Source: Elusimicrobiota bacterium (GTDB lineage: Bacteria > Elusimicrobiota > Elusimicrobia > UBA1565 > UBA9628). From it: DNA of 64,000 nt. The DNA is taken from positions 458,302-522,301 of the forward strand of contig JACRDN010000019.1 in NCBI GenBank assembly GCA_016218575.1. Reading direction: 5' to 3'. A program made the translations under genes and the position numbers. The stretch's first letter is position 1, and each line of letters begins with the position of its first letter. A model generated the notes under the pieces. That model was not told the DNA's origin, did not search any database, and worked only from the letters and a program-made list of their open reading frames with translations. This document shows positions 40,763-62,309 of the stretch, one piece after another.

Positions 40763-41280
40763 GACCGCTCCTTGCTCAGCGCGCCTAAAGCCGCGCGGAA
40801 CTCCGCCGGCCGCACGGCCGATAGATGGTGCTTGAAGCGTATCCTGCCGGCGCCGTCCACGACGTAAAGGTTTCGCAGCGGGCATGTCCCGGGCGGGTGC
40901 GTCTGCCCGAGCCGGCGCGCGACGATATCGTCGGGGTCGAGGAGGATCGGAAACCCGCAATTCCGCGCGACCTTCGGCGGCAGAGGATCGTTGATGTCCA
41001 GGATGCTGACGGCTAGGACGCGGAGGCGGCCGCCCGATTCGCGGCGCGCCTCCTCCAGCAGCGGGATGCGAGCCCGGCAGTCATCGCAGAGATTCGTGAG
41101 CCACAACACCGTCAGGCCGCCTGGCTTGCCGTCATAGAGCGAATGAGACTTCCCATCGACATCTTTTAGGGTGAAATCGGGGAAGCACCCTCCCACCTCG
41201 ACGCCGGGGTGAAGCCGCGCCCTCAACGGCCAGAGAGCTCTCCACAGCCAGATTTGCAGGCGGCGGCTTATCGGCTCCAT
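40759..41280 (-). CDS. Redoxin (AhpC/TSA, TlpA-like) domain protein
   Basis: A 173-residue thioredoxin-fold protein. An N-terminal amphipathic or membrane-near helix precedes GGCFPDFTLKDVDGKSHSLYD, the start of the redoxin fold, and the redox site lies in TNLCDDCRARIP. A further Cys in PPGTCPLRNLYVVDGAGRI follows the cis-Pro region. It may reduce peroxides or act as a thiol oxidoreductase. The start MEPISRR overlaps the end of the flavoprotein disulfide reductase gene by 13 bases, which suggests that the two form a redox pair. Confidence 0.8.
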   Translation of the reverse strand: MEPISRRLQIWLWRALWPLRARLHPGVEVGGCFPDFTLKDVDGKSHSLYDGKPGGLTVLWLTNLCDDCRARIPLLEEARRESGGRLRVLAVSILDINDPLPPKVARNCGFPILLDPDDIVARRLGQTHPPGTCPLRNLYVVDGAGRIRFKHHLSAVRPAEFRAALGALSKERS

Positions 41281-42824
41281 CGAAGCCACCCGCCGAGCAC
41301 GTCCTTGACGAAAGGCGTCAGGCGCGTCCGGCTGTAGGCGTCGGCGACCTTCTTGATGCACTCGGCCTGCGTGGGATAGGGATGGATGGTCTGGGCTATG
41401 GTCTTGAGTCCCGCTCCCGGGGTCATGGCCACGGAGATCTCGCTGAGCATCTCTCCGGCGTGCCGGGCCACGATGGTCGCGCCTAGGATATGGTCCGTTC
41501 CCTTGCGCACATGCACTTTGATGAACCCCTCGCTCTCTCCATCCAGGACGGCGCGATCCACGTCACGGAATTCCGAGACGAAGGTCTCGACCGGGATTCC
41601 CTTGTCCTTGGCGTCCTTCTCGTAAAGGCCCACGTGCGCGATCTCGGGATCGGTGTAGGTGCACCAGGGGATGGTCAGCGCGCCGGCCCGCTTGCGCCCC
41701 ATGAACAGCGCGTTCTGGATGGCGATGCGGGCCATGGCGTCGGCCGCGTGCGTGAACTTGTAGGCGGAGCAGACGTCGCCCGCCGCGTAAACCTTGGGAT
41801 TCGAGGTCCGCAGGCGCTCGTCGACCTTGACCCCGGTCTTGTCGTAGCTGATCCCCGCGGTCTCAAGCCCGAGGCCTTCGACGTTCGGCGAGCGCCCCAC
41901 GCCGACGAGCACGGCGTCGAAGGCCGCCTCGCCCGAGGGGCCGTGCTTGGACTTGAACCGCACCACCCTCTCGCCGCCGCGACGCTCGACGCGCTCAATA
42001 TCGACGCAGCACAGAAATTCTACCTTATCCCGGCCCAAAGCCTTGCGGATAAGCTCGGAGGCGTCCAAGTCCTCGCGGGGCAAGACCCCGTGCATCGCCT
42101 CGAACAGGGTCACGTGCGAGCCGAACCGCGCGAAAGCCTGCGCCAGCTCCACGCCGATGGGGCCCGCGCCGATCACGAGGAGGCGTTTCGGGAGCTCGGT
42201 CAGGCTGAACACCGTCTCGTTGGTCAGCGCCTCCGCCTCCCAAAGCCCCGGGATCGGCAGCCTCGCGGCGCGCGCTCCCGTGGCGATCACGGCCTTCGAG
42301 AAGCTCAGGCGCTTGCCGTCAACCTCCAGAGAATCCGGCGACACGAACTTCCCCTGTCCCAGGAAGACATCGACGCCGAGGTTCTTGAACCTCTGGACCG
42401 AATCGTTGGGGCTTAATGCCGCGCGCAAGCGCCGCATCCGCTCCATGACCTTCGGGAAATCTACCGTCGTCCCGGGCGGGACGCGCACCCCATACTCTCC
42501 CGCGTCGCGCACGTCGGCGCAGGCGCGCGCGGCCCGGATGAGGGCCTTGGACGGGACACAGCCCACGTTCAAGCAATCGCCGCCCATCAAGTGCTTCTCG
42601 ACCAGGGCTACCTTCGCGCCCAGCCCGGCGGCCCCGGCGGCCGTCACGAGCCCGGCCGTGCCCGCGCCGATGACGACGAGGTTGTAGCGGTCCGCCGGCT
42701 GCGGGTTGACCCAGGCGGGCGGATGGGCGTTCGCGACGACCGTGCGGTTATGTTCGTCAAAGGGCTCGATGCGCACGGTCTGATCCATAAGCCTCCGGTC
42801 GTTCAACGTCGTGTCCGTCTTCAT
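41268..42824 (-). CDS. MerA-like FAD-dependent disulfide oxidoreductase
   Basis: A 518-residue flavoprotein of the pyridine nucleotide-disulfide family. FAD motif VIGAGTAGLVTAAGAAGLGAKV at 51-72 (read as a GxGxxG block), redox-active pair GGDCLNVGC (C84, C89), NAD(P) motif VIGAGPIGVELAQAF, AAGDVC and the interface TIHPYPTQAE. It resembles mercuric reductase, but has neither an N-terminal HMA domain nor the C-terminal Cys pair that binds Hg. Such proteins recur beside arsenosugar genes with TVP38 and DUF547. GGGAGG precedes the ATG. A candidate ECF promoter lies 33 bp upstream. Confidence 0.88.
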   Translation of the reverse strand: MKTDTTLNDRRLMDQTVRIEPFDEHNRTVVANAHPPAWVNPQPADRYNLVVIGAGTAGLVTAAGAAGLGAKVALVEKHLMGGDCLNVGCVPSKALIRAARACADVRDAGEYGVRVPPGTTVDFPKVMERMRRLRAALSPNDSVQRFKNLGVDVFLGQGKFVSPDSLEVDGKRLSFSKAVIATGARAARLPIPGLWEAEALTNETVFSLTELPKRLLVIGAGPIGVELAQAFARFGSHVTLFEAMHGVLPREDLDASELIRKALGRDKVEFLCCVDIERVERRGGERVVRFKSKHGPSGEAAFDAVLVGVGRSPNVEGLGLETAGISYDKTGVKVDERLRTSNPKVYAAGDVCSAYKFTHAADAMARIAIQNALFMGRKRAGALTIPWCTYTDPEIAHVGLYEKDAKDKGIPVETFVSEFRDVDRAVLDGESEGFIKVHVRKGTDHILGATIVARHAGEMLSEISVAMTPGAGLKTIAQTIHPYPTQAECIKKVADAYSRTRLTPFVKDVLGGWLRWSR

Positions 42825-42850: not shown

Positions 42851-43012
42851 CTAAAAATGAGTAGGGCCATGCCCCGGAAAGTTGCGGCGCCCGCGTTTCC
42901 TTCCTCCGAATCGCGTCCAGCAGACTTCCACGCCGCAGCCGATCAGGGCAAGGCCGATGGCTCCCAGCAGGATGGCGATGGCGAAACGGAGCGTCGGGAT
43001 GCCGAATATCAT
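42851..43012 (-). CDS. Small single-helix membrane protein (53 aa)
   Basis: Starts MIFGIPTLRFAIAILLGAIGLALIGCGVEV, one hydrophobic helix, then a basic tail WTRFGGRKRGRRNFPGHGP. The ATG overlaps the TVP38 stop as ATGA, which argues for translation. Two Cys flank the end of the helix. No family recognised. The stop region overlaps the candidate promoter for the next gene. Confidence 0.55.
   Translation of the reverse strand: MIFGIPTLRFAIAILLGAIGLALIGCGVEVCWTRFGGRKRGRRNFPGHGPTHF
42857..42886 (-). promoter_or_regulatory. Candidate ECF-type promoter, site E (flavoprotein operon)
   Basis: Minus-strand CGCAAC (42886-42881) followed after 18 bp by ACTCAT (42862-42857), with TTTCCGGGG directly after the first part. 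The TTTCCGGGG and CCCTACT flanks match site A (51022-51051) closely. It is 33 bp before the flavoprotein reductase start and inside the end of the small membrane protein gene. Confidence 0.5.
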
Positions 43013-43698
43013 GATTGGACCCGGGTTTGCTCGTCGAGAGCGGAACGCGCTAGGCGCGTGATGAGCACGCTCACGGCCGCGGTGGCGGCGAGGCCGAGGG
43101 CGTAGAGTGCCCATTCCATCCTCGTCCGGGCTCGGCCGCCCGAGCCGAGACCTGCGAGGCTGCCGGCGAGCGAACCGATGTAGACGTACATGACGGTTCC
43201 CGGCAGCATGCCGATCCATGAAGCCAGGACATAGTCCCGCAGCCGGACTTCCGTGATCCCGAAGGCATAGTTCAGGAGATTGAACGGGAATACGGGCGAG
43301 AGCCTCGTCAATCCGACGATCTTCCAGCCTTCTCGCGCGACCGCCGCGCTCACGGCGGCGAATCTCGGGTTGGTTTCCAGCTTCCGTGCGACCCATTCCC
43401 GGGCCATATAGCGGCCGATCAAGAACGAAGCCGTCGCGCCCGCCACCGAGGCGATGGAGACATACACCGTCCCCATGACCAGCCCGAACAGCGCTCCCGC
43501 TCCCAGCGTGAGCAGCGATCCAGGCAGGAACAAGACGCAGGCCGCGACGTAGGCGGTTATGAAAGCGGCGGGCGCCCAGGGGCCGAGGCCATGCACGCGG
43601 ATAAGAAGTCCTTCGAGCAGCGTTCGGGCGTCTTGCTGTCGCAGGAAGACGAACAGCCCCACGGCCAAGAGCGCGATGACGACATGCCTGAGTTTCAC
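43009..43698 (-). CDS. TVP38/TMEM64 family membrane protein
   Basis: A 229-residue polytopic protein of the SNARE-associated/DedA-like superfamily. The core ALFGLVMGTVYVSIASVAGATASFLIGRY and GLTRLSPVFPFNLLNYAFGIT are diagnostic, followed by SWIGMLPGTVMYVYIGS. Related proteins move lipids between leaflets. It overlaps DUF547 by ATGA and the small membrane gene on the other side. TVP38 genes are common companions of arsenosugar clusters. The actual substrate is not established. Confidence 0.9.
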   Translation of the reverse strand: MKLRHVVIALLAVGLFVFLRQQDARTLLEGLLIRVHGLGPWAPAAFITAYVAACVLFLPGSLLTLGAGALFGLVMGTVYVSIASVAGATASFLIGRYMAREWVARKLETNPRFAAVSAAVAREGWKIVGLTRLSPVFPFNLLNYAFGITEVRLRDYVLASWIGMLPGTVMYVYIGSLAGSLAGLGSGGRARTRMEWALYALGLAATAAVSVLITRLARSALDEQTRVQS

Positions 43699-57595: not shown

Positions 57596-58489
57596 TCAAA
57601 ACCAGAGGCGAAAGCTGCCTAACAGGCGGTAGTCCGTCCTTAGAGCGGTCCCGTTGAGGCTTTGCACGGCCGGCAATTGCGCCGCAAACTCGAACACGGC
57701 CCTTTTGGTGACCCATTGCAGTCCGGGCGTCAGGAACAACTGGTAGCCGCCTGAGTCGCCGTCCGTGACGCCGCCCGCCTCGTTCTTCGCCTGGTAGACG
57801 TTGTTGGCTTCCAGGACCCCGTAAAGGTAGTTGGGCAGGCCCTCCGCCTGCAATACCCTGGGCCAAATGCGATACTGTAGGGAAACGTTCTGCTCCAGCG
57901 CATCGCCGAACTTGAAGTCATCGGCCTTTGTGTTTCTCCGGTAGGAGATATCCGCATCCGCCTGAAAGGCGAGCCACTGGCCGGTCCACACCGTGCCGAA
58001 CATGGGATCGTAGGACCCCGATCCAAGCTGCACGGAGGGCGGCAGGACGCCGAGGGCGTCGGATTCGGTGTTTCTGCCGCTCGGCCACTTTAGTCCGGCG
58101 AAGACCGCTCCGCGGGTGGTCTGTCCGGAGCTGCTGCGCGCAAAGATCTCGTATCGGCCGACGGTCATGATGTCTCCCAGCCCGGAAGCTCGCCGGACGG
58201 CGCCGGTCGACTTGATCGCCAGCCTTTTGTCCATGTACGGGAACACGCCCATCAGCGCCAGCTTGGAGCTGACCCCGTAAACCAGCACGGAGGGAACCGC
58301 CGCGACATCCATTTCCCGGCCCATGGGAGAAGGGTCGTTATGCATTCTCATCCAAACTCCCTGCCCGCGAAAGAGCATTCCTCCCTCATGCACGGGAAGG
58401 GCGGTGTTGAAGCTGATGGGCGCGGCCTCAAGGGGCGGGACGGGGATGGCCAGTAGGGATAGGGAGAGCAGAATCCGCGCCGTTTTCAT
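57596..58489 (-). CDS. Outer-membrane beta-barrel of the mer-type operon
   Basis: A 297-residue protein with a signal peptide, repeated amphipathic strands (VFAGLKWPSGRNTES, LFLTPGLQWVTKRAVFEFA) and a C-terminal Phe (LGSFRLWF). It resembles transporter-like barrels seen in heavy-metal clusters. It is the last gene of the operon and overlaps the NHL-HMA gene by 4 bases. It may let metal or a metallophore cross the outer membrane; no direct evidence. Confidence 0.65.
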   Translation of the reverse strand: MKTARILLSLSLLAIPVPPLEAAPISFNTALPVHEGGMLFRGQGVWMRMHNDPSPMGREMDVAAVPSVLVYGVSSKLALMGVFPYMDKRLAIKSTGAVRRASGLGDIMTVGRYEIFARSSSGQTTRGAVFAGLKWPSGRNTESDALGVLPPSVQLGSGSYDPMFGTVWTGQWLAFQADADISYRRNTKADDFKFGDALEQNVSLQYRIWPRVLQAEGLPNYLYGVLEANNVYQAKNEAGGVTDGDSGGYQLFLTPGLQWVTKRAVFEFAAQLPAVQSLNGTALRTDYRLLGSFRLWF

Positions 58490-59706
58490 GGGTGCGCCTT
58501 ACGGACGGGCGACATTTCCTTGAGTTCCGTGGCCTTGAACCCGGCCTTCTCCACGGCCTTGCGAACCTCATCGAAGGAAACGGTCTTGCCCGGCTCCAGA
58601 TCCAGTATCGCCGTGCCCTGACCCAGGTTCACGCGGGCGGAGCGCACGCCGGCAAGCCGGCCCAGGTGTTTCTCTATGCCGTAGGCGCAGAAGGGGCAGG
58701 CCATGCCTTCGATCCGCACCAGTACATCCCCGGAAACATGCTCGGCGGCAGGAGGCTCTGGGGCTTGCCGGCCCGCGCCAGCGGCCTCGGAGGCTCCAAG
58801 GCCCAGGACCAGGATGCGGTCATTGGCGGTGTCGGCCGCAAAGATGCGTCCTCGCGGTCCGGCGGCGATATGGGTCGGGGAGTAGACGTTGGGACGCCTG
58901 TCGTCTGCCGGCCTCCATTCGCCTTCAAAGTCTCCCTTGGCTCCCAGCAAGACGACGCGTTTGTTGGCTGAGTCCGCAACGTGGATGTCGCCGCGGGCGT
59001 CTACCGCGACGCCGCTGGGCACATGTAAAGCGCCGCGTGAGAAGAAGCGCTTCCAGGCGGAGCCCCATATTTCCAGGGACCGTCCGTCCGGCGCGACCCT
59101 CTGGATCCGATGGTTGTAGGCGTCAGCTACGACCAGATTGCCTGAGTTATCAAAATCCAAATCCGTGGGATAAGTAAATTCGCCTTTGCCGCGCCCCTTC
59201 TTACCGATGGACTTGAGCCACTTGCCTTTGGAGTCGAAGGCCTGGATGCGGTGGTTGTAGAAGTCGGCCACGTAGACATTTCCTGCCTTATCCACCGCGA
59301 CCCCGGCAGGCGAACGGAATTGGCTGTTTCCCTCTCCCGGCTCTCCCCAGCCGTAAAGGCGCTTGCCGTCCGGGGAAAAAGCCTCGACGCGGTCCGCCTC
59401 GTAGTCGCACACATAGAGCGTCCCTTCGACGCTGATCGCTATATCCACGGGTTTTTTGAACGTATCCGACCCGCCGAACTCCGCAAGGAATTTACCTTCC
59501 GGCGAGAGCTTCTGCACTCGGCGGTTGCGCGAATCGGCCACGTAGACGTTTCCTTGCGCGTCTACTCCAACCCCCATGGGCTCCCTGAATTGCGCAGGGC
59601 CGGCGCCGCTCGTCCCCCACGCGGCTATGAGGCTATAGCCCGGAACAGCGGCTCTGGCGGTCGCCATGGAGACTGCAAGGAAAACAAGCGCCAGCATCAT
59701 TCTCAT
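58486..59706 (-). CDS. Exported NHL-repeat propeller fused to an HMA metal-binding domain
   Basis: A 406-residue protein with a signal peptide (MMLALVFLAVSMATARAA). Six NHL repeats follow (GVGVDAQGNVYVADSRNRRVQKL, GVAVDKAGNVYVADFYNHRIQAF and so on), forming a beta propeller to about residue 310. After a Pro-rich linker, an HMA domain starts at about residue 330 with GMACPFCAYGIEKHLG, the CxxC metal site of MerP/CopZ-type proteins. The fusion suggests a periplasmic metal carrier held by a propeller. It starts 19 bp after the small thioredoxin-like gene. I know no named family with this pairing. Confidence 0.82.
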   Translation of the reverse strand: MRMMLALVFLAVSMATARAAVPGYSLIAAWGTSGAGPAQFREPMGVGVDAQGNVYVADSRNRRVQKLSPEGKFLAEFGGSDTFKKPVDIAISVEGTLYVCDYEADRVEAFSPDGKRLYGWGEPGEGNSQFRSPAGVAVDKAGNVYVADFYNHRIQAFDSKGKWLKSIGKKGRGKGEFTYPTDLDFDNSGNLVVADAYNHRIQRVAPDGRSLEIWGSAWKRFFSRGALHVPSGVAVDARGDIHVADSANKRVVLLGAKGDFEGEWRPADDRRPNVYSPTHIAAGPRGRIFAADTANDRILVLGLGASEAAGAGRQAPEPPAAEHVSGDVLVRIEGMACPFCAYGIEKHLGRLAGVRSARVNLGQGTAILDLEPGKTVSFDEVRKAVEKAGFKATELKEMSPVRKAHP

Positions 59707-59725
59707 ATAGTCCAGACCTAAGTCT

Positions 59726-59998
59726 TTAACTGAGTCCAACACCGGCGGCCTTCAGCGCCTCCGCCGTCAACTGACCTTGACGGCAACAGTCCAATAGACG
59801 CCCGTCCACCGCGACCGCCGGGACCCGCTTGATACCGTATTCCTTTGCCTTGGTCCGGCATTCGTTGGTGGAGCACCCCTTATTAAGGTCATAGACCACG
59901 ACATCACAGCTCGGACAGGCCAGCGACTTGACGGTCTTGACCGCGTCCTCGCAGACCGGACAGCCCGCGGTGAACACCTCGACATTTCTTTTAGCCAT
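59726..59998 (-). CDS. Small thioredoxin-like protein
   Basis: A 90-residue protein with an N-terminal CPVC in EVFTAGCPVCEDAVK, a second CPSC, and a C-terminal RVPAVAVDGRLLDCC. The cis-Pro segment VPAV fits a glutaredoxin/thioredoxin fold. Similar Cys-rich small thioredoxins accompany mercury operons. It overlaps the CopZ-like gene by 8 bases. It might pass metal or electrons between the chaperone and the other operon products; not established. Confidence 0.75.
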   Translation of the reverse strand: MAKRNVEVFTAGCPVCEDAVKTVKSLACPSCDVVVYDLNKGCSTNECRTKAKEYGIKRVPAVAVDGRLLDCCRQGQLTAEALKAAGVGLS

Positions 59999-60470
59999 GA
60001 CTTTTCACCTCCTCTTGAATCTTCTTGATCGCTCCGGCCACGTTGCCGAGGCAGCACGCTCCCTGCGGGTTCTTGCGCTCGCAGGCGCAGCGGCCCTCGG
60101 CGATTCCCTTCTTGATTCGCTCCGGGATATCGGTCTTGCCTCTCTCCGCCAGGTCCTGTCGGAGATCGCCGCGCTTGAAGTCGAAGCAATAGCAGACGGG
60201 CACCTGATCTCCCCCGTCCTTTATCGTCACTGGCAGAATCGTCTGGCTTTTGCGGACGACGAATCCGCTCGGGTTGCAGTAGACCGCTTCGCAGGCCGGG
60301 TTGAGGCAGAACGTGGCGTCGTCGCCGATGGCCGCTCTCAAGGGCTGAGGGACGTGATGATCCAAGGTCAAAGCCGCCACCTTGCGCCCGGCGTTGCCGC
60401 AGAGGGGGCACGGACAAGCCGTCGTCCCGATGTGGCAGCACTCTTCGTGGTTAGGAGCGCGGCTTTCCAT
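59991..60470 (-). CDS. CopZ-like Fe-S cluster metallochaperone
   Basis: A 159-residue protein without an HMA tail. The N-terminal part has ACPCPLCGNAGRKV, a zinc-type knuckle, and the C-terminal part CYCFDFKRGDL and GRCACERKNPQGACCLGNV, which match the 2Fe-2S and zinc domain of Archaeoglobus CopZ. In that protein the cluster domain is fused to a copper-binding HMA domain. Proteins of this kind are frequent next to merT/merP. It overlaps merTP by 20 bases and the thioredoxin gene by 8. Confidence 0.82.
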   Translation of the reverse strand: MESRAPNHEECCHIGTTACPCPLCGNAGRKVAALTLDHHVPQPLRAAIGDDATFCLNPACEAVYCNPSGFVVRKSQTILPVTIKDGGDQVPVCYCFDFKRGDLRQDLAERGKTDIPERIKKGIAEGRCACERKNPQGACCLGNVAGAIKKIQEEVKSHG

Positions 60471-61053
60471 GAGCCCCTCCCTCCAGAATTTCGGCCTTGT
60501 AGCCGGCGGCGGCTACTGCCTTGAGCACAGCCTGGGGATCGGCCTTGCCGTTCGTGGCTACCCGAGCCTGTTGGCTGTCGAAATCCACGCTGGCGGAGTA
60601 GACTCCGGGGACCTTCTCCACCGACTTCTTGATCGCCACGGTGCAGGCCGCGCAGTCCATGCCCGAAACCCTGAGACTGATCACCTGGGCGTCCGCCGGA
60701 GCGGCGACAGACCCTCCGTTGAGCACCCAGGCGGACCAGTTGGGAAAAGTCGCCACGCCCAAAGTCATGACCGTTACGGCCCAGAGCGTGGCCTTCACCG
60801 TGCGGCTGCCGGATCGCAGCTCACAGTCGCCATCCGCGCAGGCGACCGGCCGCTTCCTGTATGCCTGGTAGAAACCGGCGGCGAGGACCAGTCCCGTCAG
60901 GGCAAGAAACAGCGGCCGGTACTGGGAGAGACCCGCGGCCAAACCCAGGCTGCCAAGACCCAGGCCGGTCACGATCAGCGGGCCGACGCAGCAAATTGAG
61001 GCCAAGCCCGCTGAAGCCAGGGCAACGGCTCCGACAATGACTCTATTGTTCAT
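60451..61053 (-). CDS. MerT-MerP fusion mercury transport protein
   Basis: A 200-residue protein. The MerT part has three helices with a CC pair at 21-22 in the first helix and a loop pair C71/C76 (ACADGDC). After a third helix, a MerP/HMA domain follows with SGMDCAACTVA (C133, C136). This is the MerTP arrangement, which moves Hg2+ from the periplasm to the cytoplasm. The ATG at 61053 overlaps merR by 11 bases. No merA is nearby, so the metal might be exported, sequestered, or handled by another reductase. Confidence 0.92.
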   Translation of the reverse strand: MNNRVIVGAVALASAGLASICCVGPLIVTGLGLGSLGLAAGLSQYRPLFLALTGLVLAAGFYQAYRKRPVACADGDCELRSGSRTVKATLWAVTVMTLGVATFPNWSAWVLNGGSVAAPADAQVISLRVSGMDCAACTVAIKKSVEKVPGVYSASVDFDSQQARVATNGKADPQAVLKAVAAAGYKAEILEGGAHGKPRS

Positions 61054-61468
61054 GGCGATTTCCTCCCCCATCTTCAAGACTGTCCAGGATCGGGCAGCGA
61101 TTGGTCGTCGCCCTAGCCGAGCATGTCCGAATGAGCCGTTCGAGCACCCTCTCCATCGCGCCAAGCCCCGCGATCTTGTCCTGCACGATCTTGAGTCGTG
61201 CCTGGGCCTGACCTTTGACCTTGCCGCACTGGATCTTGCGGCCGATGCGCAGGCGCAGGAGCTTGGCGATCTCGTCAAGGGAGAAGCCGAGGTTTTGGGC
61301 ATTCCTGATGAAACGAAGCTTCCTGACGGCCTCCTTGCCGTATAGCCTATAGCCTGAGTCCCGGTGGCCGTCTGGAAACAAGAGTCCGCGGCGCTCATAG
61401 TAGCGGACCGTTTGAACGTTGACCCCGGCCTGCTTGGCCACCCTGCCTATAGTCAATCTTCCATCCAT
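61043..61468 (-). CDS. merR: MerR family mercury-responsive regulator
   Basis: A 141-residue regulator with a winged-helix domain (TIGRVAKQAGVNVQTVRYYERRGLL) and a dimer helix. The three Hg-binding Cys are present at C81 (IQCGKV), C116 and C125 (CSARATTNRCPIL), the same spacing as in MerR. It is the first gene of the mer-type operon, unlike many systems where merR is divergent, so it is probably self-controlled. Other thiophilic metals cannot be excluded. Confidence 0.92.
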   Translation of the reverse strand: MDGRLTIGRVAKQAGVNVQTVRYYERRGLLFPDGHRDSGYRLYGKEAVRKLRFIRNAQNLGFSLDEIAKLLRLRIGRKIQCGKVKGQAQARLKIVQDKIAGLGAMERVLERLIRTCSARATTNRCPILDSLEDGGGNRHEQ

Positions 61469-61485: not shown

Positions 61486-61517
61486 AGTATAGACCCTATA
61501 CCTAAGTATAGAGTCAA
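61486..61517 (-). promoter_or_regulatory. MerR-type promoter and operator
   Basis: On the minus strand TTGACT (61517-61512) is separated from TATACT (61491-61486) by 20 bp, a long spacer as needed for MerR activation. The spacer holds the inverted repeat CTATAC-N4-GTATAG (61496-61511), which is the operator. The merR start follows 18 bp later. A weak ECF-like pair, AGTAAC with ACTTAG 18 bp on, overlaps the same DNA. Confidence 0.85.
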
Positions 61518-61547: not shown

Positions 61548-62309
61548 CTACCGCTTCGCCCGCAGCAGAAACTGATAGTTCAATGAGAGCGATTGGTAGA
61601 GATGCCTTGCGCCCAGCAGCCGCGCGACCACGAAGGCGACGAGGGATGCCAGCATGATGGGAGTCAGCATCTGGTGGTGTCCGGTCATCTCGAAGATGAT
61701 GACGAATTCCTTGACTTCGCCGAAGTAGTCGGTCGTCAGTTCCTCGACGGCAAAAGTGACGCCGGCCAGCGGCGTGTTGAACGCAGCGGCCAAGCCCGCC
61801 GCGCCCCCGGCGACCATGGCCGAGCGTAGATCGAGTTGAAGCCCTAAGAGTCCTCGTGCGGCGAGGACAAGAGTTACGAAGACGCATGTTGCGATATGCA
61901 CGGTCGGGCCCTCGCGGCCCGTGGAGGCTCCGGCTAACAACGCGATGAGCAGCGCGGCGACCTTGACGAACATCGTATGGGGAGAGGTCAACGGTGCCAG
62001 CGCGTGTTCCGACGCGGGTGTGGAATGCTTGATCGCGAAGATGACTTGGGGGATTCCCGTGCCGTCGGCGCACGGGGCCGCTCGGCGCATCAATTCGACC
62101 GACAATAGGAACAGGGCCGGGGTGGTCAGCAGGCACCACCAGCCTATGCTGTGGAAGTCGAGCCGGCGGGCTAAGACCGCTTCAAAGGCCCGCATGAAAG
62201 CCACGCATGAGATGCCCGTGATGACTGCGGCCAATATGAAGGTGAAGAATGCGGCGCCGTAGCGGTGTTTGGAGACGATCATGAGGAAGCGCTTGGTGGA
62301 GGCGATCAT
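61548..62309 (-). CDS. ClC-type chloride channel/antiporter, internally shortened
   Basis: A 253-residue membrane protein. The first half has ClC elements DGTGIPQVIFAIKH and GASTGREGPTVHIA (the selectivity loop with the gating Glu), and AAAFNTPLAGVTFAVEEL. The protein then moves directly into VIIFEMTGHHQMLTPIMLASLVAFVVARLLG, the usual late segment. The middle helices with the GxFxP loop are absent, and the length is about half of the family's, so an in-frame loss of roughly 150 residues is likely. It is probably non-functional or has a different role. It lies 79 bp upstream of merR on the same strand. Confidence 0.7.
   Translation of the reverse strand: MIASTKRFLMIVSKHRYGAAFFTFILAAVITGISCVAFMRAFEAVLARRLDFHSIGWWCLLTTPALFLLSVELMRRAAPCADGTGIPQVIFAIKHSTPASEHALAPLTSPHTMFVKVAALLIALLAGASTGREGPTVHIATCVFVTLVLAARGLLGLQLDLRSAMVAGGAAGLAAAFNTPLAGVTFAVEELTTDYFGEVKEFVIIFEMTGHHQMLTPIMLASLVAFVVARLLGARHLYQSLSLNYQFLLRAKR

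Follow-up and report, generated by a model that had tools for sequence, protein, structure and literature searches.

A mer-type operon without merA in an Elusimicrobiota genome may pass imported mercury to a CopZ N-terminal-type protein

A mer-type operon without mercuric reductase

In a 64,000-nucleotide stretch of an Elusimicrobiota bacterium genome (GenBank assembly GCA_016218575.1, contig JACRDN010000019.1, positions 458,302 to 522,301; hereafter the window), six minus-strand genes at 61468-57596 form an operon of the mer type that contains no merA, the gene for mercuric reductase. Judging from gene content and promoter, we consider it probable that this operon is controlled by Hg(II) and that imported Hg(II) is handled by its third gene product, CopZn, with the last two genes forming an envelope add-on. 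The features of the operon, all on the minus strand, are as follows.

61486-61517, minus strand: putative MerR-type promoter/operator, 17 bp ahead of merR, from the sequence and a shuffle-controlled scan
61043-61468, minus strand: merR, 141 amino acids, with Cys81, Cys116 and Cys125
60451-61053, minus strand: merTP fusion, 200 amino acids, MerT with a C-terminal MerP-like HMA domain
59991-60470, minus strand: CopZn, 159 amino acids, CopZ N-terminal-type Zn/[2Fe-2S] metallochaperone-like protein
59726-59998, minus strand: small thioredoxin-like protein (Trx), 90 amino acids, with CPVC and further Cys pairs
58486-59742, minus strand: NHL-HMA, GTG start, with signal sequence, propeller, linker and HMA domain
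57596-58489, minus strand: outer-membrane barrel (OMB), final gene of the operon, 12-strand barrel of FapF/COG4313 fold, related to PF13557

An earlier note on this DNA had described a six-gene mer-type operon without merA, and all six open reading frames were confirmed, with Pfam and NCBIfam models backing MerR, MerT plus HMA, the CopZ N-terminal domain and NHL plus HMA. The span given there, 58486-61468, holds five of the genes and left out the barrel gene at 57596-58489. For the small thioredoxin the position stands, and the family support is a sub-threshold thioredoxin/glutaredoxin match. All six genes lie behind a single MerR-type promoter. With the long starts, each gene overlaps the next, by 11, 20, 8, 17 and 4 bp in order; the probable start of NHL-HMA is an ATG at 59706, right at the signal peptide. 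Scans of the locus for sigma-70 promoters and terminators gave no useful result, the former being limited to spacers of 16-18 bp.

The lack of merA extends to the host genome, a 2.82-Mb assembly that is 97% complete. The earlier note had proposed looking for merA elsewhere, and no protein in the genome scored above the TIGR02053 cut-off (best 383 vs 454 bits). MerA is above cut-off in 8/340 Elusimicrobiota genomes. A search for MerB gave no match, but its controls gave none either. Mercury methylation by HgcA was dropped as a candidate, the host genome having no match to PF03599 (hgcA/CdhD) in a search for which control genomes were positive.

The regulator, operator and importer point to Hg(II)

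Among solved structures, the window MerR aligns best with Tn501 MerR (5crl), and its Cys81, Cys116 and Cys125 align with all three Hg(II) cysteines of that protein, a triad of the 82/117/126 type with 9-residue spacing. CueR-type copper regulators are not known to have a cysteine at the MerR-82 position, and the alignment of window Cys81 with MerR Cys82 speaks against a CueR-type copper regulon. Upstream of merR, a -35 element (TTGACT, 61517-61512) and a -10 element (TATACT, 61491-61486) are separated by a 20-bp spacer and enclose a 9-4-9 palindrome, ACTCTATAC-TTAG-GTATAGGGT, at 61514-61493. This placement of the MerR palindrome within a 19/20-bp promoter spacer is that of mer operons. Matching geometry is present in 17/17 other contiguous MerA-less merR-merT-copZn loci of the phylum and also ahead of merR where the phylum has true merA operons (L176-L183, where L182 repeats L152). 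In the scan, the operator score was reached by 30/61 real upstream regions vs 0.07% of composition shuffles. Firmicute MerR operators have the same 9-4-9 palindrome in a 20-bp spacer, according to the accessible part of a 2006 comparative study (PMC1526738).

The importer is intact and tells a similar story. The MerT part of the window MerTP has a cysteine pair (CC) in the first transmembrane segment (TM1) and a second Cys pair in the loop, its HMA motif, GMDCAAC, contains the CxxC of MerP, and it matches PF02411 at 43.3 bits (cut-off 32.9). Trees of MerTP (39 rows) and MerR (69 rows), built by quick searches with SH-aLRT as their one measure of support, place 22 MerA-less and 8 MerA-linked Elusimicrobiota rows in one group, interleaved with at least three label changes, and the window MerTP groups with MerA-linked MerTP. 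Because of the MerR triad, the operator shared with merA operons and this grouping of MerR and MerTP, the metal of the operon is most likely Hg(II). The suggestion in the earlier note that the operon responds to another thiophilic metal is unlikely given the alignment of the triad with 5crl, the shared operator and the interleaving of MerA-less and MerA-linked rows.

A CLC chloride-channel gene adjoins merR in the window (61548-62309) and, by eye, at L055:3-416; the orientations differ.

CopZn occupies the slot that merA has in related operons

CopZn, whose position in the slot of merA was overlooked in the earlier note, is probably the key part of the operon. Its description there as a CopZ-like chaperone holds for the kinship with CopZ, but the protein is not an HMA-type CopZ; it corresponds instead to the Zn/[2Fe-2S] N-terminal domain. 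It scores 110.8 bits to NF047645 (CopZ_Nterm_CC, cut-off 100), is also above cut-off for PF18423 (zf_CopZ) and matches the N-terminal domain of Archaeoglobus fulgidus CopZ (2hu9) with an E-value of 1.4e-12. The Zn and [2Fe-2S] cysteine set is present, and binding of these cofactors is predicted. Positions 93, 95, 128, 130, 139 and 140 are Cys in 37/37 rows of the alignment.

CopZ_Nterm_CC is above cut-off in 22/340 Elusimicrobiota genomes. A contiguous merR-merT-copZn arrangement without merA occurs in 17 other fetched loci of the phylum (L126, L127, L131, L145, L146, L148, L149, L150, L153, L154, L156 and L158-L163); gene calls in all comparison loci come from a crude purpose-made caller. The order merR-merTP-merA-copZn(-trx) was found at L152/L182 and L183. 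One genome of the 340 (G138) has both MerA and CopZn above cut-off, in a single operon merR-merTP-merA-copZn-trx, and another (G145) has merR-merT-merA-copZn with a CopZn at 81 bits. The remaining six merA operons of the phylum read merR-merT-merA, followed in two by trx. Thus, in related operons, CopZn fills the slot of merA or sits behind it. A stronger version, in which CopZn and MerA are mutually exclusive replacements, was dropped on a non-significant test in Acidobacteriota, and we limit the claim to the same slot in related operons.

CopZn and MerTP travel together in other phyla and on plasmids

Variants of the MerA-less merR-merTP-copZn arrangement are also found on plasmids and in Acidobacteriota. 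CopZ_Nterm_CC is above cut-off in 31/396 Acidobacteriota genomes. Within 1.5 kb of CopZn in 30 Acidobacteriota loci we found a match to the MerT/MerTP model in 25, MerR in 20 and merA in 6; this model includes the HMA/MerP domain, so that 'MerT-like' among these loci can mean MerP. Strict motif counts in the same 30 loci came to 25, 29 and 25, and the rows themselves show the TM1 CC and the HMA CxxC in 30/30.

We examined 8 of 26 plasmid records found by CopZn match and 3 of 26 found by Trx match. A Stanieria plasmid carries trx-MerR-merF-CopZn without merA, a Methylomonas plasmid has MerR, merT, merP and CopZn, and plasmids of Peribacillus and Stenotrophomonas have merR-CopZn. Small Trx relatives adjoin merR, merF or copZn on plasmids and stand behind merA at L178, L180 and L152. 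In two other phyla the proteins are fused. On the planctomycete K2D plasmid pK2D_1 (CP036351, L217:4342-5700), CopZn, MerT and MerP lie in one polypeptide, and in Acidobacteriota (L233:1177-2664 and L235:1177-2664) a single 496-amino-acid frame reads Trx-like (by eye)-CopZn-MerT-MerP. Together, these fusions unite three proteins, each of which has its own gene in the window. We take CopZn and MerTP to belong with each other.

Two further observations concern these plasmids. The planctomycete fusion was deposited as 'merA Mercuric reductase', though it contains no reductase domain by NCBIfam. On the Stanieria plasmid, a gene for an S-adenosylmethionine (SAM)-dependent methyltransferase directly follows CopZn of the MerA-less MerR-MerF-CopZn cluster (L215:4950-6036).

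NHL-HMA and the barrel belong to a widespread envelope module

The NHL-HMA protein has a six-bladed propeller at residues ~35-316, a linker and an HMA domain at 340-410 with a CPFCAYG motif. The NHL match (PF01436) reaches 137 bits, and a structure model with Foldseek gives a propeller plus an HMA fold. A metal site in the propeller was rejected, as none of the invariant propeller columns is Cys, His or Met. No family profile matches the window barrel, but PF13557 is found in 32/41 of its relatives, and its AlphaFold model has 12 strands (pLDDT 92.8).

A search with NHL-HMA gave 68 named loci from many phyla, the closest named relatives being metagenome-assembled genomes of Elusimicrobia. Counts were made on 46 loci with an OMB; 22 were dropped for want of one (giant NHL proteins or contig ends), including L013, L027, L048 and L068, each with a true MerA near the NHL gene. 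The 46 loci contain HMA in 44 cases, NHL in 40 and all three components together in 38, along with MerR (27), MerT-like (12), true MerA with the C-terminal CC (6) and trx (15). With the window included (47 loci), the commonest orders are HMA-OMB-NHL (18) and OMB-HMA-NHL (9). Stand-alone HMA proteins have a signal-like N-terminus and CPFCAYG or near variants of it.

The NHL-HMA fusion together with an OMB is found in the window and at L010, with further Elusimicrobia fusions at L126 and, on a broken contig, at L055. The earlier note had named separate NHL and HMA genes in relatives as a finding that would count against its reading, and this is the case outside Elusimicrobia, where the two are adjacent, separate genes; in most other phyla HMA, barrel and NHL stand side by side as three genes. 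A unique fusion was therefore rejected. Because they are separate neighbors elsewhere, the fusion is derived, two of the three module genes having been joined in Elusimicrobia, and it supports a functional link rather than a unique 'propeller carrier'. A periplasmic and outer-membrane route is plausible.

MerA is above cut-off in 24/46 module genomes (the genomes behind the 47 loci), with 18/190 Alphaproteobacteria, 9/149 Acidobacteriota and the above-mentioned 8/340 Elusimicrobiota in the comparison samples. By the independent pattern CPFC[AS]YG, found in 5/190 Alphaproteobacteria, MerA is present in 3/5 vs 15/185 others (Fisher p 0.006). On plasmids, the NHL search returned nothing clear and the OMB search 10 weak records. 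HMA-OMB-NHL gives the impression of a general envelope component for soft metals that is here attached to a mercury operon.

Some members of this neighborhood deserve separate mention. On the Marinobacter plasmid pSMR5 (L189), genes for an extracytoplasmic-function (ECF) sigma factor, a zf-HC2 protein, a sulfite oxidase, a cytochrome, CcdA, a Cu-type ATPase, a CPFC-type HMA protein and a short barrel reading frame follow one another in what looks like a copper counterpart of the module. At L126:6922-8625 an upstream ECF-sigma-like stretch (by eye) runs on in frame into NHL-HMA, giving 567 amino acids in total and possibly representing two genes. Small DsrE-like proteins (by eye, with no NCBIfam match) adjoin HMA or OMB genes at L126:6286-6807 and L131:8116-8580.

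How imported mercury may be handled

MerTP without a sink makes cells hypersensitive to Hg, which means that there must be a sink. In the model that we favor, Hg(II) would enter through MerTP and be handed to CopZn in the cytosol, where it may be either reduced or held, and Trx would keep the thiols reduced or restore them. At the envelope, the CPFC HMA domain would bind a soft metal, the propeller might dock the metal at the barrel, and the barrel could pass metal or metal-thiol complexes between the periplasm and the outside, in either direction. A more specific proposal, which we put forward tentatively, is a MerA-independent enzymatic route in which Hg(II) would pass from MerTP to CopZn and be reduced with the help of Trx and possibly of a flavoprotein encoded elsewhere in the window, with the HMA/NHL/barrel relay moving Hg across the periplasm and the outer membrane.

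Several observations weigh against CopZn as the handler of Hg(II) in a mercury-controlled operon. That CopZn is the sink is something we infer. The window MerR and MerTP both fall below their NCBIfam cut-offs (127.8 vs 150.85 bits, and 93.6 vs 180 bits for NF033556). In Acidobacteriota, MerA occurs in 2/17 genomes with CopZn vs 7/132 others (Fisher p 0.27), and in Elusimicrobiota the overlap of CopZn and MerA in one genome is within chance. CopZn adjoins Cu-type or other P-type ATPases on Deinococcus and Enterococcus plasmids and occurs without merR on an Alicyclobacillus plasmid, which speaks against a purely mercury role. As for the module, 22/46 of its genomes have no MerA above cut-off, the full MerR triad is present in 11 of the 27 MerR-bearing loci with the first Cys missing in 9 others, and P-type ATPases accompany HMA and OMB in both L060 and pSMR5, the one of pSMR5 being Cu-like.

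Sequestration alone, with MerTP, CopZn, Trx and NHL-HMA holding Hg(II) at thiols without reduction, would fit an operon that encodes no reductase and whose proteins, apart from the barrel and the propeller, are Cys-rich. Redox work is suggested, however, by Trx and by the conservation of the [2Fe-2S] ligands, and an importer paired with a stoichiometric sink would be costly; we regard sequestration as possible but rather doubtful.

The Hg(II) reductase itself could be encoded by another gene of the window:

41268-42824, minus strand: MerA-like FAD oxidoreductase (PRK06370.1-3), outside the operon, with a CLNVGC redox motif and no C-terminal CC

At 383 bits, no other protein of the genome comes as close to MerA as this flavoprotein. 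In a split MerA it would be the actual Hg(II) reductase, with CopZn and Trx delivering Hg(II) or carrying electrons. It retains the redox CxxxxC and lacks the CC, for which Cys139-Cys140 of CopZn, invariant in 37/37 rows, could stand in. Its gene is no more than 20 kb away from copZn in 9/19 fetched loci plus the window (10/20), in four families and on either side, at distances of 2.4-17 kb (~17 kb in the window); 1-3 flavoprotein copies per genome would lead one to expect 1-4%, although the loci are related and the binomial figure is therefore overstated. In the other 10/19 fetched loci, several with short flanks, it was not seen near copZn. Moreover, the protein belongs to NF004991 'FAD-containing oxidoreductase' (815 bits, cut-off 620) rather than to MerA, it is encoded outside the operon, and the same flavoprotein is found near a true merA operon (G225), so that the neighborhood may be a general metal/redox island. 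Taken together, a split MerA seems unlikely.

A TVP38-like gene (43009-43698) adjoins the flavoprotein gene, and several Elusimicrobiota, with and without MerA, have this pair within 20 kb of their mer loci.

Finally, a role in handling another soft metal (Cu(I), Ag(I) or Cd/Zn/Pb), with MerTP and CopZn acting as in copper trafficking and the barrel as the exit, is quite improbable: CopZn is akin to a copper chaperone domain and on pSMR5 an HMA-OMB pair is found together with genes for a CcdA-like protein and a Cu-type ATPase, with L060 as a further case, but the Hg(II) triad of the window MerR, the merA-operon operator and the grouping of MerTP with MerA-linked MerTP argue otherwise, and the operon has no P-type ATPase; the one that the HMA model picked up is of Cu type and is encoded on a different contig.

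A candidate for mercury disposal without MerA

According to the accessible part of a survey of 84,032 genomes, MerA is present in 7.8% of them and roughly half of those encoding MerB have no MerA (PMC8261052), so other routes of Hg(II) disposal must exist. The same part of the survey poses Hg(II) disposal without MerA as an open question and makes no mention of CopZ, NHL or Elusimicrobia. Likewise, we found no description of CopZn in mer operons or of the HMA-barrel-NHL module in the literature searched, which was mostly without full text. The merR-merTP-copZn operon, which recurs and whose CopZn and MerTP are fused in two further phyla, offers a concrete, testable candidate for such disposal, and the operon may point to a second bacterial way of disposing of mercury. 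The HMA-barrel-NHL module, in turn, appears to be a part of the envelope machinery for soft metals that spans many phyla and as yet has no name.

Comparison with known systems

The operon shares an Hg-type MerR, a long-spacer MerR promoter and MerT/MerP import with mer operons of the Tn501/Tn21 and Gram-positive types. As in firmicute mer operons, to go by the accessible part of the comparative study (PMC1526738), merR comes first and the 9-4-9 palindrome sits in a 20-bp spacer. It differs in having CopZn, Trx, NHL-HMA and the barrel, and no merA. CopZn has the Zn and [2Fe-2S] cysteine pattern of A. fulgidus CopZ (2hu9); unlike that protein, it has no HMA half, is encoded with, and elsewhere fused to, MerT-MerP, and contains an additional invariant CxC and CC. 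The window flavoprotein shares the disulfide redox motif of the MerA/PRK06370 oxidoreductases, but differs from MerA in scoring below cut-off, lacking the C-terminal CC and lying outside the operon.

For the envelope module, the 12-strand fold of OMB resembles the FapF/COG4313 channels (5o67, 4rl8; TM-score 0.67-0.75), whereas sequence identity is 12-14% and OMB has genes for metal proteins as neighbors instead of amyloid or catabolic genes. The Uet clusters for extracellular electron transfer pair NHL-repeat UetHI with a beta-barrel porin, UetC, in the accessible part of their description (PMC10734462); the likeness noted here is one of gene content, and Uet clusters encode multiheme cytochromes, in contrast to the window operon, which encodes none.

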